DNA from: Clostridium sp. Marseille-P2415
Lineage (GTDB): Bacteria; Bacillota; Clostridia; Lachnospirales; Lachnospiraceae
Reading direction: 5' to 3'
DNA length: 64,000 nucleotides
NCBI RefSeq assembly: GCF_900155545.1
Contig: NZ_LT732526.1
Location: 3,682,286 to 3,746,285 of the forward strand
The stretch's first letter is position 1; each line of letters starts with the position of its first letter. Position numbers and translations under genes: made by a program. Positions 192 to 18,480 of this stretch are shown here, one piece after another. Under the pieces are notes generated by a model. The model was not told the origin of the DNA, did not search any database, and was given only the letters and a program-made list of their open reading frames with translations.

Positions 192-1490
192 ATGCAAACG
201 AAATTAGAAAGAATAGCAGACAAATCGGCTCATGAAAGCCGACCGGTATTTACATCACTGTATCACTTGCTGAATGAGGAACTATTGCTTCAATGCCATA
301 AAGAATTAGACGGAAAGAAAGCAACAGGAGTCGATGGAATAACAAAAGAGGAATACAGCCAAAACTTAAGAGAAAACATCAGAAATCTGGTGAAAAGACT
401 TAGGAACAAGGCATATAAGCCGAAACCGACCCTGCGGGTGTATATACCGAAAGCAAATGGAAAGAAGCGTCCACTGGGTATTGCAGTCTATGAAGATAAA
501 ATTGTGCAATTAGGACTAAAGAAGATATTGGAAGCGGTATATGAACCAAAGTTTCAGGAGAACATGTACGGATTCCGGCCGAAACGCGACTGTCATATGG
601 CAATCAAAGAAATGTGTATCAGTATCGTGCGAAAGCGTATCAACTATGTTGTAGATGCAGATATCAAAGGTTTCTTCGACCATATGAGTCACGAATGGAC
701 AATGAAGTTCGTTGAATACTACATCAAAGACCCGAACATACTCTGGCTGATAAAGAAGTATCTGAAAGCAGGAGTGCTGGAAGAAGGGAGGTATCAGACG
801 AATGAATGGGGATCCGCCCAAGGAAATATCATCAGTCCGATATTGGCAAATATCTACATGCACCATGTGCTGGTGTTGTGGTACAAAGCATACTTTGAGA
901 AACGCGGAACGGGAATGAGTTTTCTGGTAGTGTATGCAGATGATTACCTGGCAGGCTTTGAACATAAGGGGGAAGCCAAACGATACTACGAAGAGATGCA
1001 GATACGGCTGTGTAAATATGGGTTGGAACTAGAGACGAGTAAAAGCAGACTTGTAGAATTCGGGAGATATGCGAAAGAAAGAAGAAAGCGAAAAGGGGAG
1101 GGAAAACCCGAGACCTTTGATTTCTTGGGATTTACATTCTATTGCGGAGAAAACCAGGAGGGAAAGTTCTGTGTGATACCGAAAACCAACGGGAAACGAA
1201 TGCGGACAAAACTGAAGGAGATGAAGCAGTGGCTGAAGAACAATCGAACAAAGCCATTAAAAGAGATAATGCTGATCCTTAATCGTAAGCTGGTTGGACA
1301 CTACAGATACTACGGTGTGACGTATAACATACCATCGCTGATGAAGTATCACTATTACACAACGCGCCTGTTATACCGCTGGATGAATCGAAGGAGTCAG
1401 AAGAAAAGCTACAATTGGGAGGAATTTAAGCAGATGCTGGATTATTATCCGCTGGCATATCCCAAGAGGTATTACAATCTCTATGCGTAG
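192..1490 (+). CDS. ltrA: Group II intron reverse transcriptase/maturase
   Basis: Multifunctional intron protein that assists splicing and copies the intron RNA during retromobility. RT domain covers about residues 30-290: the first catalytic Asp is in ADIKGFFD (155-162), the second pair is YADD (248-251), and the GSAQGNIISP block (207-216) corresponds to the usual GTPQGGxxSP motif with Ser-Ala replacing Thr-Pro. The C-terminal 100 residues (FDFLGFTF, then LNRKLVGHYRYYGV) form the maturase X domain. There is no HNH endonuclease domain, as in endonuclease-free introns such as class C. At 432 aa it is full length for that type and the frame is intact, so the element may be active. Class is not certain without the 5' ribozyme. 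Confidence 0.93.
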   Translation: MQTKLERIADKSAHESRPVFTSLYHLLNEELLLQCHKELDGKKATGVDGITKEEYSQNLRENIRNLVKRLRNKAYKPKPTLRVYIPKANGKKRPLGIAVYEDKIVQLGLKKILEAVYEPKFQENMYGFRPKRDCHMAIKEMCISIVRKRINYVVDADIKGFFDHMSHEWTMKFVEYYIKDPNILWLIKKYLKAGVLEEGRYQTNEWGSAQGNIISPILANIYMHHVLVLWYKAYFEKRGTGMSFLVVYADDYLAGFEHKGEAKRYYEEMQIRLCKYGLELETSKSRLVEFGRYAKERRKRKGEGKPETFDFLGFTFYCGENQEGKFCVIPKTNGKRMRTKLKEMKQWLKNNRTKPLKEIMLILNRKLVGHYRYYGVTYNIPSLMKYHYYTTRLLYRWMNRRSQKKSYNWEEFKQMLDYYPLAYPKRYYNLYA

Positions 1491-1516
1491 CGGGAATCTG
1501 TAAATGTTATTATGAA

Positions 1517-1549
1517 GAGCCGTATGCGGGAAAGCCGCACGTACGGTTC
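1517..1549 (+). other. Group II intron domain V hairpin
   Basis: The stem GAGCCGTATGCG / CGCACGTACGGTTC with a GAAA-type loop matches the conserved bacterial domain V, which carries the catalytic AGC triad and binds the active-site metals. It starts 27 bases after the RT stop codon, the usual arrangement when the ORF sits in domain IV. Its intact pairing argues that the ribozyme core is functional. Confidence 0.85.
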
Positions 1550-1660
1550 TGGAAAGGACTTCGCATTGTGAGGTGCGATTTTACTAAACGCGCGTCCGGA
1601 AAAGGGCGGATTGCTTAGCGGATGGAAAACTGAAAAGAATCAGGCAAAACAGGAGGAAAA

Positions 1661-3323: not shown

Positions 3324-3355
3324 AATAGGAATTCATGGATTTATCAGGAGGTATT

Positions 3356-4372
3356 ATGAAATTCCAGTATGGACAAGAGAATGGACGTGAGCGAATTACA
3401 ATACAGGAAATAGCAGAGAAACTGAAGTTGTCCTCTACTACTGTGTCAAGAGCGATTTCGGGTAAGGGCCGGGTCAGCCGGGAGACACAGGATAAGATAT
3501 TTGCTTTTTTGGAGGAGAATCATTGTATTCCAAATATTAATGAAAAAGCAGAGAAAAGGTCTAAGAATATCTGTGTACTTTTGCCGGGGGAAGAGGGACA
3601 TGCACAACTGCCTTATTTTCAAGAGATTTTATTAAGTATTTACGACTGTTTTTCATCATGGAATTACGGTGTATTGCTGGTAAAGACAACCTCCTCGGAT
3701 ATACAGGCCTTAAAAACACTGGTGGAACAGCATAAAGTGGATGGAGTGGTATTTACCAGAACAATGGCAGGAGATTTGGCTGTAAGCTATTTAAAAAAAC
3801 AAGAGATTCCTTTTGTGGTAATTGGAAGCTGGCCGGAGACAGAGGTTATTCAGGTTGATTTTGACCAGGAAGGGGGCTGCAGGGATTTAGCCTCCGTACT
3901 GCTTCGAATGAATATTAAGAGAATTGCATGTCTTTGCGGTGATAAAGGGCATATTGTAACCCAGAACCGTCTGAAAGGAATCCGGGCTGCGTATCGTGAA
4001 GCGGGAGTTTTTATGGATGAGGATCTGCTTTATACCGGAGCAGTTCATCCATCAATTGTGGAAAAAGATGTGATGGAGCTTTTGGGTAAAAAAGTGGATT
4101 GTATTCTTTGCCTTGATGATAACATCTGTATGGGAGTATTGAATGCACTTTATAAAAACCAGATAAAAATTCCGCAGGAGGTAAAAGTTGCTTCCTGCTA
4201 CGGCAGCAGGCTGTTGGCAAGCTGCTACCCTTCAGTTACCTGTCTGGAATTTGATGTAAAAGAAATAGGTGGTGTTGCTTCCAGAAAACTGTTGGATGCC
4301 ATAAATAAAAATGCAGACTATAATAAACTGATCCTTGGCTATAATGTTTTAATCAAAGATTCTACCATGTAG
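3356..4372 (+). CDS. LacI-family transcriptional regulator
   Basis: Sugar-responsive repressor. The N-terminal helix-turn-helix (ITIQEIAEKLKLSSTTVSRAI, about residues 15-35) and hinge are typical, followed by a periplasmic-binding-protein-like effector domain to the end. ATG 3356 was chosen because AGGAGG at 3346-3351 precedes it; the longer frame from 3335 would add seven residues with no ribosome binding site. At 338 aa it has normal family length. It follows the binding-protein gene on the same strand and probably controls that uptake system, but no partner transporter or catabolic enzyme is in view to name the inducer. Confidence 0.9.
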   Translation: MKFQYGQENGRERITIQEIAEKLKLSSTTVSRAISGKGRVSRETQDKIFAFLEENHCIPNINEKAEKRSKNICVLLPGEEGHAQLPYFQEILLSIYDCFSSWNYGVLLVKTTSSDIQALKTLVEQHKVDGVVFTRTMAGDLAVSYLKKQEIPFVVIGSWPETEVIQVDFDQEGGCRDLASVLLRMNIKRIACLCGDKGHIVTQNRLKGIRAAYREAGVFMDEDLLYTGAVHPSIVEKDVMELLGKKVDCILCLDDNICMGVLNALYKNQIKIPQEVKVASCYGSRLLASCYPSVTCLEFDVKEIGGVASRKLLDAINKNADYNKLILGYNVLIKDSTM

Positions 4373-4424: not shown

Positions 4425-4453
4425 TTGACAATTGACAGTTCTTTTTATAAAAT
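4425..4453 (+). promoter_or_regulatory. fab operon promoter
   Basis: TTGACA (4425-4430), 17 bases, then TAAAAT (4448-4453); an alternative -10 TATAAA starts at 4446. It is the only strong sigma-A-like promoter between the LacI gene and fabH, and it directly abuts the palindrome at 4455-4471. Confidence 0.65.
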
Positions 4454-4471: not shown

Positions 4472-4557
4472 ATTTAATAATAAAACAATCCAACGCGGCA
4501 TGCAGACCGCCGGCTCCAGGAAGAAAAGGAGAGGCGGCGGCATGAATGGGGGAATTT

Positions 4558-5523
4558 ATGACAACAAAAATTATTGGAACAGGTTCTGCTGTCCCGGACC
4601 AGGTGGTGACCAATGATGATCTGGCAAAGTTTGTGGACACCAGCGACGAATGGATACGAACCAGGACCGGAATCAGGGAAAGGCGGATCGCATCGTCCGA
4701 GTCCGGGACCTCGGATCTGGCAGCAGAGGCAGCGAAAGAGGCTCTTAAGAATGCCGGTGTATCGGCAGAAGAGCTGGATATTATTATTTTGGCGACATCT
4801 TCTGCAGACTGCTGTTTTCCCAGCGGTGCCTGTGAGGTGCAGGCGGCAATCGGAGCTTATAATGCGGTAGCCTTTGATCTAAGCGCAGCGTGCACCGGGT
4901 TTATTTATGCCCTTCATACGGTTCAAAGTTTTTTTAAAGCAGGGATCTATAAGACAGGGCTGGTGATCGGAGCGGATACATTGAGTAAGCTTATTGACTG
5001 GAGTGACAGAAGCACCTGTGTCCTGTTCGGTGACGGAGCCGGAGCGGCTGTGGTACGGGCGGAAGAAAATGGTGTCCTTACCATGACCATGGGAGCGGAT
5101 GGCAGCAGGGGAAGCGCTCTGGAATGCGGAGGGCGGACCACGGGAAATTTCCTGACGGGAAAGAAGCCGGAGCTCGGCTATATGACCATGGATGGCCAGG
5201 AAGTGTTCAAGTTCGCGGTCAAGACGGTGCCGGAATCCATTAAAAAGGTGCTTTCAGAGAGCGGAACCGATATAGATGAAATTAAATATTTTATTCTGCA
5301 TCAGGCAAATTACCGGATTTTTGAATCCATAGCGAAACGGTTAAAGATACCCATGGAGAAAATTCCAACCAACTTAGAACGGTTTGGAAACACATCGGCA
5401 GCGACCATACCGATTTTGTTGGATGAGATGAACCGGGAAGGAAAATTACAGCGGGGAGATAAGATCATACTTGCTGGCTTTGGCGCAGGGTTAACCTGGG
5501 GAGCCACTCTTATGGAGTGGTAA
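4558..5523 (+). CDS. fabH: 3-oxoacyl-ACP synthase III (FabH)
   Basis: Starts fatty acid synthesis by condensing acetyl-CoA (or another short acyl-CoA primer) with malonyl-ACP in the cytosol. The catalytic triad is visible: Cys112 in DLSAACTGF, His in FILHQANYRI and Asn in RFGNTSAATIP. Cys112 has the same number as in E. coli FabH when ATG 4558 is used, which also has GGGGGA upstream; the frame could open at 4546 (four extra residues). Length of 321 aa is normal. First gene of the fab operon, behind a promoter and FabT-like operator. Confidence 0.96.
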   Translation: MTTKIIGTGSAVPDQVVTNDDLAKFVDTSDEWIRTRTGIRERRIASSESGTSDLAAEAAKEALKNAGVSAEELDIIILATSSADCCFPSGACEVQAAIGAYNAVAFDLSAACTGFIYALHTVQSFFKAGIYKTGLVIGADTLSKLIDWSDRSTCVLFGDGAGAAVVRAEENGVLTMTMGADGSRGSALECGGRTTGNFLTGKKPELGYMTMDGQEVFKFAVKTVPESIKKVLSESGTDIDEIKYFILHQANYRIFESIAKRLKIPMEKIPTNLERFGNTSAATIPILLDEMNREGKLQRGDKIILAGFGAGLTWGATLMEW

Positions 5524-5554: not shown

Positions 5555-5602
5555 AATAGTATAAAAATTAAAATGATGAAAATGAAAGAGGAGATTGGAA
5601 TT

Positions 5603-5836
5603 ATGTTAGAGAAAATGCAGGAAATTATCGCGGAGCAGTTAAATGTGGAGGCTGAAAAAGTTACCGCTGCGTCTTCCTTTAAAGAGGACTTGGGAGCAGA
5701 TTCTCTGGATCTGTTTGAGCTTGTTATGGCTCTTGAGGATGAGTATTCCGTTGAAATCCCGTCTGAGGATCTGGAAAAGCTGACTACGGTTCAGCAGGTT
5801 ATGGACTATTTAAAAGCAAAGGGCGTGGAAGCGTAA
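5603..5836 (+). CDS. acpP: Acyl carrier protein
   Basis: Small acidic carrier that holds growing acyl chains on a phosphopantetheine arm. The attachment Ser is in [13 protein letters not shown] 5603 gives the normal 77-residue ACP and has GAGGAG at 5588-5593, nine bases upstream; the frame is open from 5573 but that would add ten unusual residues. The stop codon overlaps the fabK start by one base (TAATG), showing tight coupling. Confidence 0.96.
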
Positions 5837-6759
5837 TGAAAACCAGAGTTACCGAATTATTGGGAGTGGAACAGCCGATCATCCAGGGCGGCATGGCCTG
5901 GGTGGCTGAGCACCACCTGGCCGCGGCCGTATCGGAAGCAGGCGGTCTTGGGCTGATCGGCGGTGCAAATGCCCCCGGCGAGGCGGTCCGTGCGGAAATC
6001 CGCAAGGCAAAGGAGCTGACCAATAAGCCGATTGGCGTAAATGTCATGCTGTTAAGCCCTCATGCAGAGGATGTGGCTAAGGTTGTTGTGGAGGAAGGCA
6101 TCAAGGTGGTGACCACCGGAGCCGGAAACCCGGAAAAGTATATGGAAATGTGGAAGGCTGCCGGTATCAAGGTGATCCCGGTAGTGGCTTCTGTGGCGCT
6201 GGCAAAGAGAATGGAGCGCTATGGAGCGGATGCAGTGGTGGCGGAAGGCTGTGAATCAGGCGGACATATCGGAGAACAGACGACTATAACTCTGGTTCCC
6301 CAGGTAGTGGATGCGGTATCCATTCCGGTGATCGCTGCAGGCGGAATCGGGGATGGACGCGGAATTGCAGCAGCATTTATGCTGGGCGCGGAGGCAGTTC
6401 AGATCGGTACCAGATTTGTGGTGGCGAAGGAATCCATTGTACATGATAACTACAAACAGCGGATCATTAAGGCAAAGGATATTGATTCCGCAGTAACCGG
6501 CCGTACTCATGGACATCCGGTCAGATGCTTAAGAAACCAGATGACGAGAGAGTATGTGAGACTGGAACAGGAAGGCAAGTCCTTTGAAGAGCTGGAGTAT
6601 ATGACTCTTGGAACCCTTAGAAAGGCAGTTCAGGAGGGGGACATCACAAACGGCACGGTTATGGCCGGCCAGATTGCAGGTATGATTTACAAAGAGCAGT
6701 CCTGCAAAGAAATGATTGATGAGATGATGGAGCAGGCAGAGAGATTGCTTGGCCGTTAA
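5836..6759 (+). CDS. fabK: Enoyl-ACP reductase II (FabK, FMN-dependent)
   Basis: Reduces trans-2-enoyl-ACP in the last step of each elongation round, using NAD(P)H and FMN. TIM-barrel flavoprotein of the nitronate monooxygenase superfamily: GGMAWV near the N-terminus, ESGGHIGEQTT with the conserved His, then AAGGIGDGRG and GAEAVQIGTRF in the phosphate-binding half. Length 307 aa is typical. No FabI or FabL is seen in the operon, so this is the likely main reductase, which implies intrinsic triclosan tolerance as known for FabK enzymes. Confidence 0.94.
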   Translation: MKTRVTELLGVEQPIIQGGMAWVAEHHLAAAVSEAGGLGLIGGANAPGEAVRAEIRKAKELTNKPIGVNVMLLSPHAEDVAKVVVEEGIKVVTTGAGNPEKYMEMWKAAGIKVIPVVASVALAKRMERYGADAVVAEGCESGGHIGEQTTITLVPQVVDAVSIPVIAAGGIGDGRGIAAAFMLGAEAVQIGTRFVVAKESIVHDNYKQRIIKAKDIDSAVTGRTHGHPVRCLRNQMTREYVRLEQEGKSFEELEYMTLGTLRKAVQEGDITNGTVMAGQIAGMIYKEQSCKEMIDEMMEQAERLLGR

Positions 6760-6775
6760 AGAGGAGTTTATGATT

Positions 6776-7690
6776 ATGAGCAAGATTGCATTTATTTTCC
6801 CAGGCCAGGGCGCGCAGTACTGCGGAATGGGCCAGGATTTTTATGAGCAGACAGCGATTGGAAAAGAAATATACGACATGGCCTCCGGGCTGCTTGGATT
6901 TTCTGTACCGGAATTGTGCTTTGAGAAGAATGACCGGCTGGATATTACGGAATATACCCAGGCTGCCATGGTAACCACCGGCATCGCCATGATGCGGGTA
7001 ATGGAAGCGGAAAAGGGTGTGAGACCGGATGTGGCTGCGGGTTTAAGCCTGGGAGAATATTGTGCACTTGCGGCCGCAGGCGTGATGAGCGATGCGGATG
7101 CTATTTTGACAGTAAGGCAGAGGGGAATCCTCATGCAGGAAGCAGTCCCGGCGGGAATCGGAGCCATGGCTGCCATTCTGGCGCTGGATGCATCTAAAAT
7201 TGAAGAGGTATTAGGCGGTATGGAGGGAGTCCAGATCGCCAACTACAACTGCCCGGGGCAGATTGTGATATCGGGTAAAAAAGAGGCGGTGGAAGAGGCC
7301 AATGAAAAACTCCTGGCAGCAGGTGCAAAGCGTGCCCTGATGTTAAATGTAAGCGGACCGTTCCATTCTTCCATGCTCGCCGGTGCAGGTGAAAAGCTGG
7401 GAGAGGTATTAAAGGGCGTGGAGATTTTAACTCCCCGGATCCCTTATGTGGCCAATGTGACCGCCGGGTATGTGACCGAAGGTGATATGGTAAGGCCTTT
7501 ACTGGAAAAGCAGGTGTCTTCCTCCGTGCGCTGGCAGCAGAGCGTGGAAACCATGCTGGCAGATGGAGTGGATACCTTTATTGAAATCGGGCCGGGTAAG
7601 ACCCTGGCAGGATTTATAAAGAAGATTACCAGAGATGCAAAAGTCTTTAATATAGAGAAACTGGAAGATATGGAGGCATATTTTTCTTAA
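6776..7690 (+). CDS. fabD: Malonyl-CoA:ACP transacylase (FabD)
   Basis: Transfers malonyl from CoA to ACP. Signature GQGAQ at the N-terminus, nucleophile Ser in GLSLGEY and catalytic His in SGPFHSSML are all present. ATG 6776 lies nine bases after GAGGAG (6761-6766); ATG 6770 is too close. The 304-residue product is of normal length. It follows fabK by 16 bases. Confidence 0.95.
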   Translation: MSKIAFIFPGQGAQYCGMGQDFYEQTAIGKEIYDMASGLLGFSVPELCFEKNDRLDITEYTQAAMVTTGIAMMRVMEAEKGVRPDVAAGLSLGEYCALAAAGVMSDADAILTVRQRGILMQEAVPAGIGAMAAILALDASKIEEVLGGMEGVQIANYNCPGQIVISGKKEAVEEANEKLLAAGAKRALMLNVSGPFHSSMLAGAGEKLGEVLKGVEILTPRIPYVANVTAGYVTEGDMVRPLLEKQVSSSVRWQQSVETMLADGVDTFIEIGPGKTLAGFIKKITRDAKVFNIEKLEDMEAYFS

Positions 7691-7732: not shown

Positions 7733-7759
7733 GTTCGATGAACCTTAGGTGAATCGAAC
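7733..7759 (+). repeat. Nested inverted repeat between fabD and fabG
   Basis: GTTCGAT-GA-ACCT-T-AGGT-GA-ATCGAAC: 11 of 13 positions on each side are complementary. It lies in the widest gap between fabH/acpP and fabZ, 15 bases before the fabG ribosome binding site. There is no U-tract, so a terminator is unlikely. It could be a protein-binding site or an RNA stem that sets processing or fabG translation. Confidence 0.5.
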
Positions 7760-7787
7760 TTCATTATGGATGCAGGAGGAAATGAGC

Positions 7788-8528
7788 ATGTTAGACGGCA
7801 GGGTAGCAGTCGTGACCGGAGCCGGCAGAGGAATCGGGCGTGCGATCGCCGTAAAGCTGGCAGGACAGGGTGCAACGGTGATTGTAAATTACAATGGTTC
7901 TGAGTCAAAGGCCCTGGAAGTGGTTAAGGAGATTGAAGAGAAGGGCGGCAAGGCGGAGGCCATTCAGTGTAATGTAACGGATTATGAGAGTGCCGGAGCT
8001 TTTTTGGAAGGTGTGATCAGGAAATACGGAAAACTGGATATTCTTGTTAACAATGCAGGTATCACAAGGGATAATCTGCTGATGAAGATGTCCGAGGAAG
8101 AGTTCGATGCAGTCATAAACACCAACTTAAAAGGGGTATTCAACTGCATGAAGCATGTATCGCGCCAGATGATCAAACAGAAGAGCGGAAGGATCATTAA
8201 TATTTCCTCTGTGGCCGGCGTATTGGGCAATGCAGGCCAGGCCAATTACTGTGCGGCCAAGGCGGGCGTGATCGGAATTACCAAATCATTTGCCAGAGAG
8301 GCCGCCAGCAGGGGGATCACGGTAAATGCAGTGGCTCCGGGATTTATCCGGACCGATATGACTGATGTGCTGCCGGAATCCGTGAAGGCGGGCACCTTAG
8401 AGCAGATCCCCATGAAGCGTTTTGGAACAACGGAAGATATTGCCGATGCGGTAGCATTTCTGGCATCAGAAGGAGCCGGATACATCACAGGTCAGGTGAT
8501 CAGTGTGGATGGCGGCATGGCTATGTAA
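7788..8528 (+). CDS. fabG: 3-oxoacyl-ACP reductase (FabG)
   Basis: NADPH-dependent reduction of 3-ketoacyl-ACP. Short-chain dehydrogenase fold: TGAGRGIG cofactor loop, NNAG, catalytic Ser in INISSVAG and YCAAK (Tyr-x3-Lys). ATG 7788 ([11 protein letters not shown]) has AGGAGG 7774-7779 eight bases upstream and gives the usual 246 residues; ATG 7782 and the in-frame GTG at 7749 are less likely. Confidence 0.95.
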
Positions 8529-8539
8529 GGAGAGATTGT

Positions 8540-9778
8540 ATGAAGAGAAGAGTGGTAGTAACCGGTATGGGAGCCATTACCCCGATAGGAAATGATGTGG
8601 AAAGCTTCTGGAATGGCTTAAAGGAAAAAAAGGTCGGAATAGGGCCGATCACCCAGTTTGATACAACGGATTACAAGGCAAAGCTGGCGGCGGAAGTGAA
8701 GGATTTTGATCCAAAGGATTACATGGATCCAAAGGCAGCCAAACGAATGGAGCGGTTTGTCCAGCTCGCGGTGGCAGCGACCAAAGAAGCGCTGTCCATG
8801 TCGGGCATTGATATGGAAAAAGAAGATCCTTACCGGGTGGGCGTAAGCGTAGGTTCCGGAATCGGAAGCCTGCAGGCTCTGGAGCGTGAACATAAAAAGC
8901 TGTTGGAGAAAGGTCCGGGAAGAGTCAATCCCCTTCTGGTTCCGCTGATGATCTCCAATATGGCAGCAGGTAACGTGAGCATCCAGTTTGGGTTAAAGGG
9001 TAAATGCATCAATGTGGTAACGGCCTGTGCAACAGGAACCAATTCCATTGGTGAGGCTTTCCGGTCCATCCAGTATGGGGAAGCGGATGTGATGGTGGCG
9101 GGAGGTACGGAAGCCAGTATAACGCCGATCGGTGTAGCTGGGTTCACGGCTCTTACGGCACTTTCTACCGCAGATGATCCGCTTCGTGCCTCCATTCCGT
9201 TTGATAAGGACAGAAGCGGTTTTGTAATGGGCGAGGGTGCCGGTGTGGTTGTTTTGGAAGAACTTGAACATGCGATTAACAGAGGTGCAGTTATTTACGG
9301 CGAAGTAGCGGGATATGGGGCTACCTGTGATGCATACCATATCACTTCTCCGGCAGAAGACGGAAGCGGTGCTGCAAGAGCCATGACGGAAGCCATAAAG
9401 GATGCCGGAATTGCTCCGGAAGATCTGGATTATGTCAATGCTCATGGCACCAGCACCCACCATAATGATCTGTTTGAAACCCTGGCAATTAAAACAGCTT
9501 TAGGCGATCATGCAAAAAAGGTGAAAATAAGTTCTACCAAATCCATGGTTGGTCATCTGCTTGGCGGGGCCGGCGGTGTGGAATTTATTGTGTGTGTAAA
9601 ATCCATTGAAGACGGATTTGTACATGCCACTGCGGGTCTTACGGAAGAAGGCGAAGGCTGTGATTTAAATTATACGAAGGGCGAGGGGATCGCCTGTGAC
9701 GTAAAATATGCTATCAGCAATTCTTTTGGATTTGGCGGACACAATGCAAGCATCCTTGTGAAGAAGTTTGAACAGTAG
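8540..9778 (+). CDS. fabF: 3-oxoacyl-ACP synthase II (FabF)
   Basis: Elongating condensing enzyme: acyl-ACP plus malonyl-ACP gives 3-ketoacyl-ACP. The Cys-His-His triad is in VTACATGTN, NAHGTSTHHND and KSMVGHLLGGAG. Length 412 aa is typical. It is the only elongation synthase in the operon (no FabB), so it should act on both saturated and unsaturated intermediates. The stop codon overlaps the accB ribosome binding site. Confidence 0.96.
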   Translation: MKRRVVVTGMGAITPIGNDVESFWNGLKEKKVGIGPITQFDTTDYKAKLAAEVKDFDPKDYMDPKAAKRMERFVQLAVAATKEALSMSGIDMEKEDPYRVGVSVGSGIGSLQALEREHKKLLEKGPGRVNPLLVPLMISNMAAGNVSIQFGLKGKCINVVTACATGTNSIGEAFRSIQYGEADVMVAGGTEASITPIGVAGFTALTALSTADDPLRASIPFDKDRSGFVMGEGAGVVVLEELEHAINRGAVIYGEVAGYGATCDAYHITSPAEDGSGAARAMTEAIKDAGIAPEDLDYVNAHGTSTHHNDLFETLAIKTALGDHAKKVKISSTKSMVGHLLGGAGGVEFIVCVKSIEDGFVHATAGLTEEGEGCDLNYTKGEGIACDVKYAISNSFGFGGHNASILVKKFEQ

Positions 9779-9788
9779 GAGGCAGTCA

Positions 9789-10265
9789 ATGGAAATAAAT
9801 GATATTATCAGGCTGATGCAGGCTGTTACGGAAAATGGCCTGACCGGCTTTAAGATGGAAGAGGGAGATTTAAAGCTTTCCATTAAGAAGGAAAAGGAGA
9901 TTGTGACCGTATCCGGGAATGCTGTTATGCCGGCAGAGATGGCAGCAGGTATTTTCGCACAGCCGAAGCTCCAGGTTCATACCATTTCAGATGGGACGGA
10001 TGAGGAAACGGCTGGGGATGGAATCTGCTCGGAAAGAATCGTATCTTCTCCTCTGGTCGGAACATTTTACAATGCTTCTTCCCCTGACAGTGAACCGTTT
10101 GTTAAGGCTGGAGATACGGTGAAAAAGGGACAGATCCTTGGAATCATCGAGGCCATGAAGTTAATGAATGAGATTGAATGTGAATACGATGGTGTGGTGG
10201 AAGCTATTCTGGTAGGCAATGAAGACGTGGTGGAGTACGGTCAGCCTCTGTTCCGTATCCGGTAA
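9789..10265 (+). CDS. accB: Biotin carboxyl carrier protein of acetyl-CoA carboxylase
   Basis: Carries carboxybiotin between AccC and the carboxyltransferase. The C-terminal biotinyl domain has EAMKLMNE with the biotinylated Lys; a Thr/Ala/Pro-poor linker precedes it. ATG 9789 follows AGGAGG at 9777-9782, which overlaps the fabF stop. Product 158 aa. Confidence 0.95.
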   Translation: MEINDIIRLMQAVTENGLTGFKMEEGDLKLSIKKEKEIVTVSGNAVMPAEMAAGIFAQPKLQVHTISDGTDEETAGDGICSERIVSSPLVGTFYNASSPDSEPFVKAGDTVKKGQILGIIEAMKLMNEIECEYDGVVEAILVGNEDVVEYGQPLFRIR

Positions 10266-10329: not shown

Positions 10330-10755
10330 ATGATGTTAGGTATAAAGGAAATTCAGGAAATCATTCCTCACAGGCATCCGTTTTTACTGGTGGACTGCAT
10401 CGAGGAGTTTGAGCCGGGTGTAAAAGCGGCCGGATATAAATGTGTGACTTACGATGAGTCCTTCTTTCGGGGGCATTTTCCGGAAGAACCGGTGATGCCG
10501 GGGGTCCTGATTATAGAAGCGCTGGCTCAGGTAGGCGCTGTGGCCATCTTAAGCCTGGAAGAAAATAAGGGAAAAATCGCTTACTTCGGCGGTATTGACA
10601 AGGCGAAATTCAAGCATAAGGTCATTCCGGGCGAGAGGCTTAAGCTGGAATGTGAGATCATAAAACGCAAAGGCCCTGTAGGAGTGGGAAAAGCGGTAGC
10701 AACCGTGGACGGCAAGCTGGCAGCCAGCGCGGAACTGACATTTATGATTGGATAG
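10330..10755 (+). CDS. fabZ: 3-hydroxyacyl-ACP dehydratase (FabZ)
   Basis: Dehydrates 3-hydroxyacyl-ACP to trans-2-enoyl-ACP. Hot-dog fold with catalytic His in [10 protein letters not shown] and Glu in [24 protein letters not shown] is the family signature. Length 141 aa. ATG 10330 or 10333. FabZ does not normally isomerise to the cis-3 form, so another enzyme is needed for unsaturated fatty acids. Confidence 0.95.
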
Positions 10756-10765
10756 GTGCATGTCT

Positions 10766-12118
10766 ATGTTTGATAAGATTTTAATTGCCAACCGCGGTGA
10801 GATTGCGGTGCGTATCATAAGGGCCTGCAGGGAAATGGGAATTAAGACGGTTGCCGTTTATTCGGAAGCGGACCGGGAAAGCCTTCACACCCTGTTGGCG
10901 GATGAGGCCATCTGTATTGGTCCGGCGCCCTCGACCCAGAGCTATTTAAACATGGAGCGGATCCTCACGGCGACTGTGGCCATGAAGGCGGATGCCATCC
11001 ATCCGGGGTTTGGCTTTCTTTCTGAAAATGCGAGGTTTGCAGAACTTTGTGAAAAATGTAACATTACATTTATCGGCCCTTCGAAAGACATCATTCATAA
11101 GATGGGGAATAAATCCGAAGCCAGAAAGACCATGATGGAGGCAGGCGTTCCTGTGGTCCCGGGCGGAAAGGAAGCGGTACGTCATGTGGAAGAGGCAAAG
11201 GCCATGGCAGAAAGGATCGGTTTTCCTGTCATGATCAAGGCATCTTCCGGCGGCGGCGGAAAGGGTATGAGAATTTCAAGGGGCCTGGAGGATTTCGAGG
11301 CCAATTTTAAAAATGCCCAGATGGAGTCGGTAAAGGGATTTTCCGATGATACCATGTATATTGAAAAATATATTGAAAAACCAAGGCACATTGAGTTCCA
11401 GATCATGGCAGATAAATTTGGAAATGTGGTGCATCTGGGGGAACGGGACTGTTCCATTCAACGGCGCCATCAGAAGGTGTTGGAGGAATCGCCGTCAGCT
11501 GCCATCTCTGAGGAGCTGCGGTACCGGATGGGAGAGGTTGCTGTCCGCGCGGCAAAGGCCGTGGGATATGAAAATGCAGGAACCATTGAATTCCTTCTGG
11601 ATAAGCATAAGAATTTTTACTTTATGGAAATGAACACCCGGATCCAGGTGGAGCATCCGGTGACGGAAATGGTAACCGGCCTGGATTTGATCAAGGAACA
11701 GATCCGGATCGCGGCGGGAGAGCCCTTAAGTGTTAAGCAGGAGAACGTTTCCATTACGGGGCATGCCATCGAATGCAGGATCAACGCGGAAAATCCGGCG
11801 AAAAACTTTATGCCGTGTCCGGGCCTCATAAAAAATGTCCATGTACCCGGAGGCAACGGAGTCCGCATTGACACACACATTTACAACGATTATAAGGTTC
11901 CGGCCAACTATGATTCTATGCTGATGAAGATGATCGTCCATGGAAAGAACCGGGAAGAAGCCATTGCAAAGATGAGAAGCGCCCTCGGGGAGCTGATCAT
12001 TGAGGGAATCGAAACGAATGTAGATTTCCAGTTTGATATCTTGAGTCATGAGGCTTACCGTGACGGAGATGTGGATACGGATTTTATCCCGAAATATTTC
12101 CCGGATTATGTCCGGTAA
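10766..12118 (+). CDS. accC: Acetyl-CoA carboxylase biotin carboxylase subunit
   Basis: ATP-dependent carboxylation of biotin on AccB. Starts MFDKILIANRGEIAVR, with ATP-grasp glycine loop KASSGGGGKGMR, EKYIEKPRHIEFQ, and the active-site segment FMEMNTRIQVEHPVTE. ATG 10766 gives the family-typical 450 residues; ATG 10760 would add two. Begins 10 bases after fabZ. Confidence 0.95.
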   Translation: MFDKILIANRGEIAVRIIRACREMGIKTVAVYSEADRESLHTLLADEAICIGPAPSTQSYLNMERILTATVAMKADAIHPGFGFLSENARFAELCEKCNITFIGPSKDIIHKMGNKSEARKTMMEAGVPVVPGGKEAVRHVEEAKAMAERIGFPVMIKASSGGGGKGMRISRGLEDFEANFKNAQMESVKGFSDDTMYIEKYIEKPRHIEFQIMADKFGNVVHLGERDCSIQRRHQKVLEESPSAAISEELRYRMGEVAVRAAKAVGYENAGTIEFLLDKHKNFYFMEMNTRIQVEHPVTEMVTGLDLIKEQIRIAAGEPLSVKQENVSITGHAIECRINAENPAKNFMPCPGLIKNVHVPGGNGVRIDTHIYNDYKVPANYDSMLMKMIVHGKNREEAIAKMRSALGELIIEGIETNVDFQFDILSHEAYRDGDVDTDFIPKYFPDYVR

Positions 12119-12139
12119 GCAGGTAAAGGAGTGTATCTT

Positions 12140-13864
12140 ATGTTAAGAACCATGTTTAAGAAAACCTATACACTGATAGACAGCAAGTACAAGACTCCAG
12201 ATAAAACAGAGGAACCGAATATTCCGGCAGGGCTGTGGAAAAAATGCAACAAGTGCAGCCAGCCCATTTATGCAGAGGATGTAAGGAACAACCATTTCGT
12301 CTGCCCCAAATGCAAAGGATACTTTCGCATCCATGCTTACCAGAGAATCGAGATGACTGCGGATGAGGGAACCTTTGAAGAATGGGATAAGGAGATGGAA
12401 TTTGCCAATCCTCTGGATTTCCCGGGCTATGAAAAGAAGGTTGCGGCAGCCAGGGAGAAGACCGGGCTTTCCGAGGCCATTGTGACAGGATCCTGTGAAA
12501 TAAACGGTCAAAAGGCAGTTATCGGAGTCTGCGACGCCCGGTTTATCATGAGCAGTATGGGCCATGTGGTGGGAGAGAAAATCGCAAGGGCAGTGGAACG
12601 GGCTACGAAAGAAATGCTTCCGGTGATCCTTTTTGCCTGCTCCGGCGGAGCCAGGATGCAGGAGGGGATCGTATCCCTGATGCAGATGGCGAAGACTTCG
12701 GCGGCTTTAAAGCGCCATCACGAAGCAGGCCAGCTTTATATCAGTGTGCTTACCGACCCCACGACCGGAGGAGTGACAGCCAGCTTTGCCATGCTTGGTG
12801 ACGTTATTCTGGCGGAACCCGGAGCGCTCATTGGCTTTGCGGGACCCCGCGTCATTGAGCAGACCATCGGACAGAAGCTTCCCGAAGGATTCCAGAGGGC
12901 GGAATTTTTGCTTGAACATGGCTTCCTGGATAAGATTGTACCCAGAGAAGAGATGAAAGGAACCTTATCCGCCATCTTAAAGCTCCACAATCCACAAACC
13001 AGGAAGGCCTTCCGTGTGGATAACCTTGCGAAAGCAGAACCGGATGGTGGAAAAAAGAAACCGTTCCGCTTAAGAAAGAATAAAAGAAGCGCCTGGGATA
13101 CGGTTTTATTGTCCAGAAGTGTAAACCGTCCTGTGGCAACGGATTATATTCATGCGATTTTTGATGACTTTATGGAGTTAGCCGGAGACCGTTATTTCAA
13201 AGACGACGGAGCCATCGTAGGCGGCATCGCTTCCTTCCATGGAATGCCTGTAACCGTTATCGGACAGGAAAAAGGAAAGAACATAAAGGATAACATCAAA
13301 CGTAATTTTGGAATGCCGTCACCGGATGGATACCGGAAGGCCCTGCGTTTGATGAAACAGGCGGAAACCTTTGGACGCCCTGTGATCTGCTTTGTAGATA
13401 CACCGGGAGCCTTTTGCGGCCTGGAGGCAGAGGAAAGGGGCCAGGGGGAAGCCATAGCCAGGAACTTATTTGAAATGTCGGATCTGACCGTGCCGGTCCT
13501 TTCCATTGTGATCGGAGAGGGAGGAAGCGGCGGAGCCCTTGCCATGGCGGTGGGAAATGAAGTCTGGATGATGGAAAACGCCATCTATTCCATTCTTTCT
13601 CCCGAGGGCTTTGCTTCCATTCTTTATAAGGACAGCAAAAAGGCAAATGACGCAGCCCGGGTCATGAGGATCACGGCAAGGGATTTAATGGAGTTAGGTC
13701 TCATAGAGCGGATAATTCCGGAAGAAGAGCCGGCCTGTGCAGAAAATCTTTCCGCTATCGCGGACGAAATGGATCGGGCTATGGCAGAATTTTTTGCCAC
13801 ATACCTTGCCATGACAAAGGAAGAACTTGCAAATCAAAGATATGAAAGATTTAGGAGAATGTAA
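12140..13864 (+). CDS. accDA: Acetyl-CoA carboxylase carboxyltransferase, fused beta-alpha (AccD-AccA)
   Basis: Transfers the carboxyl group from biotin to acetyl-CoA, giving malonyl-CoA. Residues ~1-285 are AccD-like with a zinc ribbon C-x2-C-x15-C-x2-C (CNKC, CPKC) and SGGARMQEG; residues ~310-574 are AccA-like ([19 protein letters not shown], then [10 protein letters not shown]). In E. coli and many Firmicutes these are two polypeptides; here one reading frame encodes both, joined by a Lys/Arg-rich linker near residues 295-325. ATG 12140 follows AAAGGAG; an in-frame GTG at 12131 is less likely. Stop overlaps the next start (TAATG). Confidence 0.94.
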
Positions 13865-14985
13865 TGGGAACATTAAAACCATTGGTAATAGGAGACCTGG
13901 TGGCAAAAAATCCGGTGATCCAGGGAGGCATGGGGGTTGGAATCAGCCTTTCATCCTTAGCCGGAGCGGTGGCAAAGGCAGGAGGGATCGGGATCATTTC
14001 CACTGCCCAGATCGGCTTTCGGGAACCTGATTTTATGAAAAATCCTCTGGAAGCGAATTTGCGCGCCATTGGCCAGGAAATGAAAAAGGCAAGGGAAATC
14101 GCACCGGAAGGAATTATTGGCTTTAACATCATGGTTGCGACAAAAAATTATGCCAGTTATGTAAAAAAGGCGGTGAAAGCCGGAGCGGACTTAATCATAT
14201 CCGGAGCCGGCCTGCCTGTAAGCCTGCCGGAATATGTGGCAGAGGCAGCGGAAGAAGCCGGAATCATGCTGAAAACCAAGATAGCTCCCATTGTTTCAAC
14301 GGTGAAATCTGCTATGGTCATCTGTAAGATGTGGGACCGCAAGTACCACCGCGCGCCGGACCTGGTTGTGATTGAAGGGCCTCTGGCCGGAGGCCATCTG
14401 GGTTTTTCCAGAGATCATCTTGCGGAGCTTGGCGTGGATACGGAAGATGTGGACCGCACCTATAAACAGGCCGATTATGATGAAGAGGTAAGAGGTATCA
14501 TACGCCTGGTAAAGGAATATGCGGATAAATACAATAAGGAGATCCCGGTGGTAACCGCAGGCGGTATTTATTCCCATGAAGATGTCATGCGTCAGCTTTC
14601 CCTGGGAGCCGACGGCGTTCAGGTGGCGACCCGCTTTGTGACCACGGTGGAATGCGATGCGCCGGAAGCGTTTAAGCAGGCCTATATTCATGCGAAAAAA
14701 GAGGATATCGTCATTACCAAAAGCCCGGTGGGAATGCCTGGCAGGGCGATCAAAAATCCGTTCTTAAAAGGCGTTGGTAAGAATCCGTTCCGGCTGGAGC
14801 ATTGTTATCAGTGCCTGGATAAATGCGACAGGGAGACGATTCCTTACTGCATAACTAAGGCTCTGGTTAACTCAGCAGAGGGGCGGACCGATGAGGGCCT
14901 GGTATTCTGCGGGAGCAACGCATACCGGGCGGAACGGCTGGAAACCGTGGAAGCGGTTATGAAGGATCTGGTTGGAGAGAACTGA
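13864..14985 (+). CDS. FabX/FabK-like flavoprotein of the nitronate monooxygenase superfamily with Cys cluster
   Basis: FMN TIM-barrel related to FabK and nitronate monooxygenases: GGMGVGISL at the N-terminus, GGHLG with His178, TAGGIYSHED and GADGVQVATRF. Unlike the fabK product it has a ~60-residue C-terminal extension with Cys314-x2-Cys317-x3-Cys321-x7-Cys329, which looks like a [4Fe-4S] site. Helicobacter FabX, a bifunctional dehydrogenase/isomerase that makes unsaturated fatty acids, belongs to this superfamily and has an Fe-S cluster and a His at a similar position. Last gene of the fab operon, overlapping accDA by one base. The role in double-bond formation is inferred; generic annotation would be nitronate monooxygenase. 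Confidence 0.75.
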   Translation: MGTLKPLVIGDLVAKNPVIQGGMGVGISLSSLAGAVAKAGGIGIISTAQIGFREPDFMKNPLEANLRAIGQEMKKAREIAPEGIIGFNIMVATKNYASYVKKAVKAGADLIISGAGLPVSLPEYVAEAAEEAGIMLKTKIAPIVSTVKSAMVICKMWDRKYHRAPDLVVIEGPLAGGHLGFSRDHLAELGVDTEDVDRTYKQADYDEEVRGIIRLVKEYADKYNKEIPVVTAGGIYSHEDVMRQLSLGADGVQVATRFVTTVECDAPEAFKQAYIHAKKEDIVITKSPVGMPGRAIKNPFLKGVGKNPFRLEHCYQCLDKCDRETIPYCITKALVNSAEGRTDEGLVFCGSNAYRAERLETVEAVMKDLVGEN

Positions 14986-15078: not shown

Positions 15079-15124
15079 AAACAGGGGTAAGGCTCTTTAA
15101 TAAAAGAACCTTACCCCTGTTTAT
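15079..15124 (+). terminator. fab operon terminator
   Basis: Long stem AACAGGGGTAAGG...CTTT / AAAG...CCTTACCCCTGTT with one bulge and a short AT loop, ending in a TTT. It lies about 95 bases after the last fab gene and closes the operon. Confidence 0.8.
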
Positions 15125-15440: not shown

Positions 15441-16010
15441 ATGTTTGATAATCAGACTCAAGAGTATTATAGCTTACATCATATTTTAGATTCAACTCGA
15501 GATTATGTACCGAGCAGTGTGTGGATTGAAATGCTTTTTTTCGATTTTTTAATAGGTAATACGGACCGACATCAAAATAATTGGGCGTTGCTTACAACAT
15601 CAAATGGTTCCCGGGTAAGACGTTCTCCATTATATGATAATGGTTCTTCCTTGTGTTGTTATGTTCTGGAAGAAGATATATCCCTTCTTTTAGGAAAGGA
15701 TACGAATAGGTTTAAAACATTGATAGATACAAAATCGAGATCACTTGTCAGATTGAATCCAAAAGTAAAAAAACATCCATCACATAAAGAAGTGATTGAA
15801 TATCTACTAAAAGAGTGTCCTGGAATTTCTTTTCATATAGCAAATAAAATGGTAGACGTATTAACTGATGGATGTATAGAAAATATTCTGATAGATGTTC
15901 AGGATTATATAACTTTGGAAAGGAAAACTCTGATTTTTAAATTTTTGCAGGGAAAAGTAAATATATTGCATAATTTACTTGGACATAAGGAGCAAGAAAA
16001 TGAAAAATAA
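15441..16010 (+). CDS. HipA-like kinase C-terminal domain, probably 5'-truncated
   Basis: Related to the HipA/HipT serine/threonine kinase toxins. The catalytic loop IGNTDRHQNNWALL matches the HipA pattern (D-x-H-x2-N) and SPLYDNGSS matches the metal-binding PLYD segment. The 189 residues cover only the C-lobe; the N-lobe with the ATP-binding lysine is missing, and in-frame coding-like sequence continues upstream to a stop at 15366 without a start. This looks like a decayed or truncated gene. It overlaps the next gene by 11 bases. Its composition is much more AT-rich than the fab operon, a sign of transfer. Confidence 0.72.
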   Translation: MFDNQTQEYYSLHHILDSTRDYVPSSVWIEMLFFDFLIGNTDRHQNNWALLTTSNGSRVRRSPLYDNGSSLCCYVLEEDISLLLGKDTNRFKTLIDTKSRSLVRLNPKVKKHPSHKEVIEYLLKECPGISFHIANKMVDVLTDGCIENILIDVQDYITLERKTLIFKFLQGKVNILHNLLGHKEQENEK

Positions 16011-16398
16011 TTCGATGGATTTTATTAAATTGGTTTGGAAATCTCCTCAAACCAGAACAAACTATATTGTAAGTGAATTGATTCGCGAGAAAGATTCATA
16101 TTGTTTTAAATATTGCGATGAAGTAAAAGAAGCATTAAAAAATGGATTTTCTCCGTTAGTTCCATTTCCCAGTATAGATGAAGTTTATCATAGTAAAAAC
16201 ATGTTTCCGGTATTTTCTGGAAGACTTCCAGATAAGAAAAGAAGAGGAATTAACGAGATTTTAAATAAATATGGTATGCAGGAATATGATGAATTTGAAT
16301 TACTTAAGAGAAGTGGAGTAAAGTTACCCATTGATACATTTTCTTTTGTAAATCCGATAATATCAGAGGATGAGGTAATAGAGCCCGGTATTATATAG
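16000..16398 (+). CDS. HipS-like protein (HipA N-subdomain)
   Basis: 132-residue protein whose pattern follows the N-terminal subdomain 1 of HipA: SELIREKDSYCFKY aligns with the GELxxxxxGxxxFxY strand region, FSPLVPFP with RPLSLSLPL, VFSGRLPDKKRRG with FFDNLLPDxxxR, and FELLKRSG with FDLLSEIG. In HipBST systems this subdomain is a separate protein, HipS, that neutralises the HipT kinase. Here it follows the kinase gene rather than preceding it. ATG 16000 has AAGGAG at 15986-15991. The homology is by eye and moderate. Confidence 0.62.
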   Translation: MKNNSMDFIKLVWKSPQTRTNYIVSELIREKDSYCFKYCDEVKEALKNGFSPLVPFPSIDEVYHSKNMFPVFSGRLPDKKRRGINEILNKYGMQEYDEFELLKRSGVKLPIDTFSFVNPIISEDEVIEPGII

Positions 16399-17460: not shown

Positions 17461-18480
17461 TTAATTATTAAAAGAACAATCCTTAACGTTTGCACCGACG
17501 ATCACATCTTTGCTTTTACCGCTTACGGAGATACAGCCTGTAAATTGATGCTTGCCGGAAGACGGTGCCTTGGGGAAATAGAAATTAACGCCGTTGCTTG
17601 TGCCGGTACAGTTTTTAAGAGTAATATAACCGGTATTATTATTCTGGTCATAACCTCTTTTTCTGTTGCCGGTTGCCACACATCCTTCCAGATAGTGGTT
17701 GTCCGCAGTATAATCGCCGCCTACTTTGAATCCCTGTCCGTTTCCGTCGCCCTTTCCATTGTAAGATGCTTCGCAATTATAAACTTTCACGGCATTTCCG
17801 GCTCTAAAAAAATCAAAACCGTCATCAGAATTGTTCAAAGCCGTACAGTTTTCAAATACGTTTCCGGGTCCAATGTCTAATTTGGCGGCAAAGCCGTCGG
17901 CGTTCTCCCCGTTGGTTTTGGAATCAAAATTATCGGTCGATGTAACTCTGGTGATCCGGTTGTTTGAGGCACCGTTGCTCATCTGGAGTCCGGTATCGCC
18001 GCAGCCCGAAATGTTACAGTCCTGAACCCGGTTATTATTTCCGCTGATATATATTCCGTTATCACCGGCATTTTTGATTGTAAGGCCGGCGATGATCCAG
18101 TAATTCCCGGAAATCTGGAAACCTCTGGAGCTGTCTGCGTAGGGCTGTCCGGAGAAATCGACCACTGGCTTATGTCCGCTGTAATTCATAATTTTAATTG
18201 GTTCACCGGAAGTCCCGTTTGCGCTCAGCTTGAAAGTCGATGAATAGCTATGCGTCCCGTTCATTAAAAATATGGTAGTTCCTGCATTTGCCTTTGATAA
18301 AGCCTTTGTTAATGTTTTAAAAGGCTTTTCCTTTGTCATTCCGTCGTTGGAATCACTTCCGCTTGGTGATACATAATAATAGGTGGTAGCCGCGCTTGCC
18401 GGAATTTGACTGAAGTAACATAAACTAGCAATCATTAAACAAGTCATGATGATACTGGTGATTCTTTTCCCTTTTCTCAT
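17461..18480 (-). CDS. Secreted pectate lyase, PL9-type parallel beta-helix
   Basis: Signal peptide (residues 1-30, ends PASA-A) followed by a right-handed beta-helix. Residues around NADGFAAKL (Asp195) and NNSDDGFDFF (Asp219, Asp220, Asp223) have the same spacing as the calcium-binding aspartates of Dickeya Pel9A; Lys252 in GQGFKVGG is the likely catalytic base. The enzyme should cleave polygalacturonate by beta-elimination outside the cell. Length 339 aa is close to a bare PL9 catalytic domain, with no carbohydrate-binding or anchor module. GAAAGGAG precedes the start. It is divergent from the GntR sugar operon. Confidence 0.85.
   Translation of the reverse strand: MRKGKRITSIIMTCLMIASLCYFSQIPASAATTYYYVSPSGSDSNDGMTKEKPFKTLTKALSKANAGTTIFLMNGTHSYSSTFKLSANGTSGEPIKIMNYSGHKPVVDFSGQPYADSSRGFQISGNYWIIAGLTIKNAGDNGIYISGNNNRVQDCNISGCGDTGLQMSNGASNNRITRVTSTDNFDSKTNGENADGFAAKLDIGPGNVFENCTALNNSDDGFDFFRAGNAVKVYNCEASYNGKGDGNGQGFKVGGDYTADNHYLEGCVATGNRKRGYDQNNNTGYITLKNCTGTSNGVNFYFPKAPSSGKHQFTGCISVSGKSKDVIVGANVKDCSFNN

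Follow-up and report, generated by a model that had tools for sequence, protein, structure and literature searches.

Labelling in Clostridium led in 1961 to the first proposal of an anaerobic pathway for making unsaturated fatty acids. The title of Isabella and Clark (2011) reportedly refers to obligate anaerobes without FabA. Here we analyzed a FabX-like flavoprotein gene that closes a fatty acid synthesis (fab) operon in Clostridium sp. Marseille-P2415. The gene lies in a stretch of 64,000 nucleotides (contig NZ_LT732526.1, positions 3,682,286 to 3,746,285, assembly GCF_900155545.1), hereafter called the window. Its family is a concrete and testable candidate for the long-missing O2-free double-bond step of clostridia. 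Zhu et al. (2009, PMC2700279) showed that the FabZ of C. acetobutylicum has no isomerase activity, and concluded that clostridia use a 'novel and unknown' enzyme. In 2019 clostridia were still described as being without the known enzymes for this step (PMC6362236).

The closest described protein is the dehydrogenase/isomerase FabX of Helicobacter pylori (PDB 7e1q and 9lt5). Its catalytic residue is His182, flavin mononucleotide (FMN) is contacted by N99, E175, Q240 and T243, and the iron-sulfur cluster is held by Cys300, Cys304, Cys308 and Cys320 (PMC8626469). Acyl carrier protein (ACP) is contacted by K152, I156, K159, R160, R164 and T130 (PMC8626469). The same report counted 1650 species with homologues, mostly anaerobes, which belong to 31 genera in seven phyla (PMC8626469).

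Two further relatives can be likened by description only. The first, NGO1024 of Neisseria gonorrhoeae, which we take to be UfaA, shares the link to anaerobic unsaturated fatty acids but belongs to another phylum. It is reported as a FabX homologue of ~36% identity that is essential for anaerobic unsaturated fatty acid synthesis (PMC11300592). The second, C4N14_08920 of Fusobacterium nucleatum, resembles the window system in having FabK as the reductase, in keeping the cluster cysteines and in its proposed role in unsaturated fatty acid synthesis. It differs in sharing its operon with one hypothetical protein, and is 50.8% identical to H. pylori FabX (PMC11091888). The link of the family to anaerobic unsaturated fatty acids is therefore already published for Neisseria, with homologues noted in Fusobacterium and other anaerobes. 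Our literature searches found no paper that assigned the clostridial step to a FabX-like gene by experiment and no description of a repeated position in clostridial fab operons, which is weak evidence of absence as subscription journals were mostly outside their coverage. They also found no paper on clostridia for UfaA, NGO1024 or 2-nitropropane dioxygenase, and no useful account of the early labelling evidence.

The window gene was an uninterrupted open reading frame:

13864..14985, plus strand: FabX-like flavoprotein gene, 373 aa; His178; Cys314, Cys317, Cys321 and Cys329 (CX2CX3CX7C)

A phmmer search of the PDB with its product placed the H. pylori FabX chains at the top (230 bits, E near 5e-67). 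FabK reached at most 73 bits, and the nitronate monooxygenases fell below FabK. A family profile built from 72 members gave 362 bits to H. pylori FabX in a full-length match, and up to 143 bits to FabK. Thermotoga TM0800 scored 134 bits, and other entries named nitronate monooxygenase or 2-nitropropane dioxygenase (FabX aside) at most 80. Against the curated FabK model the protein scored 105.9 bits (cut-off 453.1), compared with 493 for the FabK encoded in the same operon.

The predicted structure had a mean predicted local distance difference test score of 95.8 and a predicted template modelling (TM) score of 0.94. Foldseek comparison with the PDB returned H. pylori FabX as all of the top five matches (best E 3.9e-34, TM score 0.84). 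The match to 7e1q showed a root mean square deviation of 2.7 Å and 36% identity. FabK came next (best E 1.5e-21, TM score 0.68), and nitronate monooxygenase-type proteins were lowest (E 1.7e-18 or weaker). The likeness in fold to FabX spanned the entire protein. The top five folds and the full-length profile match both indicated an NMO-type barrel with the C-terminal subdomain of FabX, not the NAD(P)H part of FabK.

In a tree of 106 rows made by a quick method, the FabX-like proteins and H. pylori FabX split from four FabK rows with a support of 100. H. pylori FabX fell inside the clostridial set (support 91) on a long branch, which makes its exact place unsure. By sequence, profile, modelled fold and tree, the protein is a member of the FabX family; FabK and the nitronate monooxygenases are more distant from it than H. 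pylori FabX is. The original prediction, made from the letters alone, had proposed a FabX-like flavoprotein of the FabK superfamily. The tree split and the top five folds bore this out, and grouping with true nitronate monooxygenases, which it had named as evidence to the contrary, did not occur by phmmer, profile or fold.

Alignment with H. pylori FabX (137 of 344 aligned columns identical) placed the four cysteines against C300, C304, C308 and C320, and His178 against the catalytic His182. Both these cysteines and the GGHLG motif with His178 were present exactly as first described. The operon FabK shares the NMO-type flavin barrel with a GGH motif, but it lacks the cluster cysteines, as had been claimed, and differs in clade and function.

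The alignment was extended to 180 relatives, 100 from genome samples and 80 named. These made 178 distinct proteins, with two identical pairs common to both sets (L104 = L203, L107 = L177). All 180 carried the four cysteines and the catalytic histidine, as well as the equivalents of the FMN contacts N99, E175 and Q240. The four cysteines were also found in eight of eight further divergent or partial copies. Conservation of the cysteine pattern is far beyond chance, and the protein would be expected to bind FMN and a [4Fe-4S] cluster. The spacing CX2CX3CX7C of the window protein was shared by 153 of the 180, CX3CX3CX7C occurred in 24, and the remaining three had two other spacings.

A basic ACP helix and several acyl tunnel residues are also shared with H. 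pylori FabX, and the single ACP contacts gave a mixed picture. The K152 equivalent was K or R in 180/180 and that of K159 in 168/180. Among the 100 rows from genome samples, S149 was conserved in all, and the tunnel residues I321, L325 and F339 in 99, 100 and 100. On the other hand, S179 was replaced by A in all 100 rows (A175 in the window protein), and F74 and Y75 of FabX fell against gaps in all of them.

The gene differs from that of H. pylori FabX in its place within a fab operon. It is the last of a run of fab and acetyl-CoA carboxylase (acc) genes, listed here with the signals at both ends:

4425..4453, plus strand: promoter-like site TTGACA-17-TAAAAT, 5' of fabH (consensus match only)
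4546..5523, plus strand: fabH (model match)
5573..5836, plus strand: acpP (family match)
5836..6759, plus strand: fabK, enoyl-ACP reductase (493 bits, curated cut-off 453)
6749..7690, plus strand: fabD (model match)
7749..8528, plus strand: fabG (model match)
8540..9778, plus strand: fabF (model match)
9768..10265, plus strand: accB (model match)
10330..10755, plus strand: fabZ (sole FabA/FabZ-family match in the genome)
10748..12118, plus strand: accC (model match)
12131..13864, plus strand: accDA fusion (ends on the base at which the FabX-like ATG starts)
15079..15122, no strand assigned (listed on the minus strand): 20-pair terminator-like hairpin (consensus match)

The overlap with accDA that had been noted earlier amounted to this single base at 13864. 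An AGGAG stood just 5' of the FabX-like ATG. The shared base and the AGGAG suggest that translation of the two genes is probably coupled. The operon probably ends at the hairpin. The region held 16 promoter-like sites, close to the 14.4 expected from shuffles. A LacI-type regulator gene (3335-4372, plus strand) lies immediately upstream of the operon and is a candidate link to its regulation only.

Linkage was defined as at least two fab/acc genes within the fetched stretch around a FabX-like gene. It was scored for 100 members chosen with split, edge and partial matches, the six genomes with divergent copies (below) and most of the own genus left out, and for the 80 named loci (the best 80 of 578 matches). 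Of the former, 40 were linked, 45 were not and 15 were too short to judge; the corresponding numbers for the latter were 40, 22 and 18. Named loci included those of C. tyrobutyricum (L203), C. acidisoli (L178), C. sartagoforme (L183), Faecalicatena faecalis (L231) and a Dorea sp. (L245).

The 80 linked loci fell into ten arrangements, with a median gap of 47 bases to the nearest fab/acc match. The commonest position was after accA (32), followed by before fabH (15), between fabK and fabD (11), divergent from fabH (9) and between fabZ and fabH (7). The tree of the 100 could be explained with no fewer than 13 changes of linkage and no fewer than 16 of arrangement, gains and losses not being distinguished. 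This indicated repeated association with fab genes. Some Clostridium genomes (G315, G454, G479 and G480) held two FabX-like copies. In G315 (L073 and L107), one copy was divergent from fabH and the other was unlinked.

No redox partner was widespread beside the unlinked copies, as judged by eye in the 14 largest neighbour clusters, which covered 63 of the 67 unlinked loci. The only redox neighbour in these clusters was a rubrerythrin-like protein, named by eye, at five loci of one group. It is encoded upstream and on the same strand in L175, L179, L181, L188 and L189, which are from Herbinix metagenome-assembled genomes (MAGs) and one Clostridiales MAG.

The own genome comprises 5.25 Mb in nine contigs. 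Full-length matches to the Pfam NMO family were two, FabK and the FabX-like protein. A third match (29.7 bits, just over the cut-off) covered part of the model and lay in a 491-aa frame. The FabA/FabZ family (PF07977) was represented in the whole genome by the operon FabZ, which scored 181 bits with the FabZ model (cut-off 113) and 31 bits with the FabA model (cut-off 238). The operon was thus found to hold FabZ, FabK and FabF and to lack FabA, as stated in the original prediction. A profile search of the whole genome found no desaturase of PF00487. Three crotonase-superfamily proteins (PF00378) were present, one within a thl-crt-hbd cluster and two adjoining FadX-like CoA transferases. They look like acyl-CoA enzymes, not FabM; the FabM model itself was not run.

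In a class sample of 393 genomes searched at a threshold of E 1e-20, 92 had a FabX-like match. This is a lower bound, because divergent copies may escape the threshold. The full cysteine check covered all but two of the 92 copies, those in G230 (at a contig edge) and G233 (in two pieces). All 25 genomes examined of the own genus had a match (in two pieces in G023); they belonged to a search of 61 genomes, 39 of which matched. In the Clostridium genus that contains G315, 55 of 58 genomes had one, of which one was short.

Six divergent members counted among the 92 (L298-L303, in G154, G130, G175, G108, G264 and G176) were ~320 aa long and had all four cysteines. Their full-length matches scored 170-184 bits with the FabX-like query and 136-157 bits with FabK. 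On these scores, the six are divergent members of the FabX family.

The FabZ family occurred in 295 of the 393 genomes: in 90 of the 92 with a FabX-like gene, compared with 205 of the 301 without (Fisher p about 1e-10, kinship ignored). Extra FabA/FabZ copies gave no clear signal as a mark of the non-carriers; by hand count, more than one copy was present in 4 of 92 carriers and 5 of 301 non-carriers. One genus, g71 (G232, G266, G370 and G439), had no FabX-like match and two or three FabA/FabZ-family genes in each genome, possibly a FabN-like solution. C. acetobutylicum, C. beijerinckii and C. butyricum were not among the best 80 of the 578 named matches.

The protein probably acts in unsaturated fatty acid synthesis, as judged from its sequence, predicted fold and conserved residues, its operon context and distribution, its presence alongside different reductases, and the literature. 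That it may supply the missing clostridial step, as first suggested, was supported by family, fold, tree and linkage. In the proposed scheme, FabZ would form trans-2-enoyl-ACP at about the C8-C12 stage, and FabK would reduce this towards saturated chains. The FabX-like enzyme would bind the acyl-ACP through its basic helix and hold the chain between FMN and His178. It would then move the double bond to cis-3, and FabF would elongate the product.

Thermodynamics and the clostridial labelling pattern both point to a redox-neutral isomerisation. This mode is also favoured because H. pylori FabX needs O2 and the present hosts are anaerobic. The conserved tunnel residues and histidine, with no widespread redox neighbour, suggest that in clostridia FabZ supplies the trans-2 compound and that its double bond moves to cis-3 with no net redox change. 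The authors of the H. pylori study considered the isomerisation itself to be O2-independent and to follow from the shape of the tunnel (PMC8626469). Given a role in unsaturated fatty acid synthesis, the redox-neutral mode has somewhat better than even odds. The full reading makes the clostridial proteins flavin/[4Fe-4S] isomerases that turn trans-2- into cis-3-enoyl-ACP without O2 and without net redox. They would be the enzyme that the anaerobic pathway has lacked, and H. pylori FabX would derive from such an older isomerase and have become coupled to O2. We give this full reading a probability of about 0.4.

Several observations weigh against the proposed role and mode. H. pylori FabX is a dehydrogenase and requires O2 (PMC8626469). 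The likeness to FabX in the original prediction stood, but its 'oxidises and isomerises' could therefore not be transferred unchanged to an anaerobe. R164, which is required for ACP binding in H. pylori FabX (PMC8626469), is K160 in the window protein, and its equivalents in the 180 relatives are K in 115, H in 31 and R in 26. The equivalents of T130 and R160 vary in the 100-row set. The cysteine spacing of H. pylori FabX, CX3CX3CX11C, differs from that of the window protein, and the six divergent copies have yet another, CX2CX3CX4C. Linkage to fab genes was absent at 45 of the 100 and 22 of the 80 loci. The 205 non-carriers with FabZ indicate that the FabX-like gene is not universal.

It is possible, with a lower likelihood, that the protein is a true FabX-type dehydrogenase/isomerase, which would oxidise a saturated acyl-ACP and, in place of O2, use some anaerobic acceptor for the electrons that leave through the [4Fe-4S] cluster. 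Oxidation of acyl-ACP needs a high-potential acceptor and is unfavourable in fermenters without one, and the neighbour clusters beside the unlinked copies showed no widespread electron carrier. On the other hand, the residues and fold are as in FabX. The cluster of H. pylori FabX is close to the protein surface and serves as a store for an electron (PMC8626469), and the homologue of Neisseria is said to function in anaerobic conditions with an acceptor of unknown identity (PMC11300592).

A second enoyl-ACP reductase, perhaps ferredoxin-dependent and backing FabK, is improbable. FabK belongs to the same superfamily, and overexpression of the F. nucleatum FabX homologue partly relieved FabK inhibition, but the authors judged FabX unable to replace FabK (PMC11091888). 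A further argument came from the reductases of other genomes. Ten loci had a fab operon without fabK. Twelve genomes, chosen and not sampled, were searched: those of nine of the ten loci, two with fabK (L231 and L213) and the own genome. The tenth locus, L071, was excluded as it begins inside fabD.

In seven of the genomes (G499-G505, three of them Blautia or Candidatus Blautia), the FabX-like protein was the sole FabK-family match, and all seven had FabV (PF12241). G506 had FabI with 43% identity to that of E. coli, in a match containing one TAA. G507 had a FabK elsewhere in the genome (355 bits, under the curated 453), and G509 a FabK in two pieces (375 and 112 bits). In G000 and G508, FabK was above the curated cut-off. 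Profile searches found no FabV in G507, G509, G000 or G508.

Thus 12 of 12 genomes had another reductase candidate, namely FabV (seven), FabK (four, two of these under the cut-off and one in two pieces) or FabI (one), and the FabX-like gene persisted whichever was used. This suggested that the protein is probably not the enoyl-ACP reductase. Its separate clade and its score, 106 bits against 453, also led us to reject FabK or a redundant reductase. Lachnospiraceae-type fab operons without fabK, with FabV elsewhere in the genome, were seen at L191, L194, L197, L199, L206, L210 and L221.

An ordinary nitronate monooxygenase or nitroalkane-detoxifying enzyme, in the operon by chance, is hardly credible and was rejected: the protein matched the Pfam NMO family at 172 bits and the PDB chains of FabX carry the label 2-nitropropane dioxygenase, but characterised enzymes of this type, in a partial sequence coverage, fell far below FabX by phmmer, profile and fold, and linkage to fab genes was repeated.

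The functional case for unsaturated fatty acid synthesis is strong, and the chemistry without O2 is the interesting part that remains. If the role is confirmed, the question becomes how the O2-requiring chemistry of H. pylori proceeds without O2. FabX has been claimed as a species-specific drug target of H. pylori (PMC12079444). Relatives are present in Blautia, Dorea and further anaerobes of the gut (among the best 80 of 578 named matches), which would bear on this claim if the role is confirmed.

Three other features of the window lie outside the operon. A group II intron (192-1584, plus strand) consists of a reverse transcriptase/maturase reading frame (192-1490) followed by a match to group II catalytic RNA (1515-1584). 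A split HipA-like module (15441-16398, plus strand) is made of two overlapping reading frames, the first with the C-terminal and the second with the N-terminal HipA domain. A Pel9A-like right-handed beta-helix protein is encoded near the operon at 17461-18480 on the minus strand.

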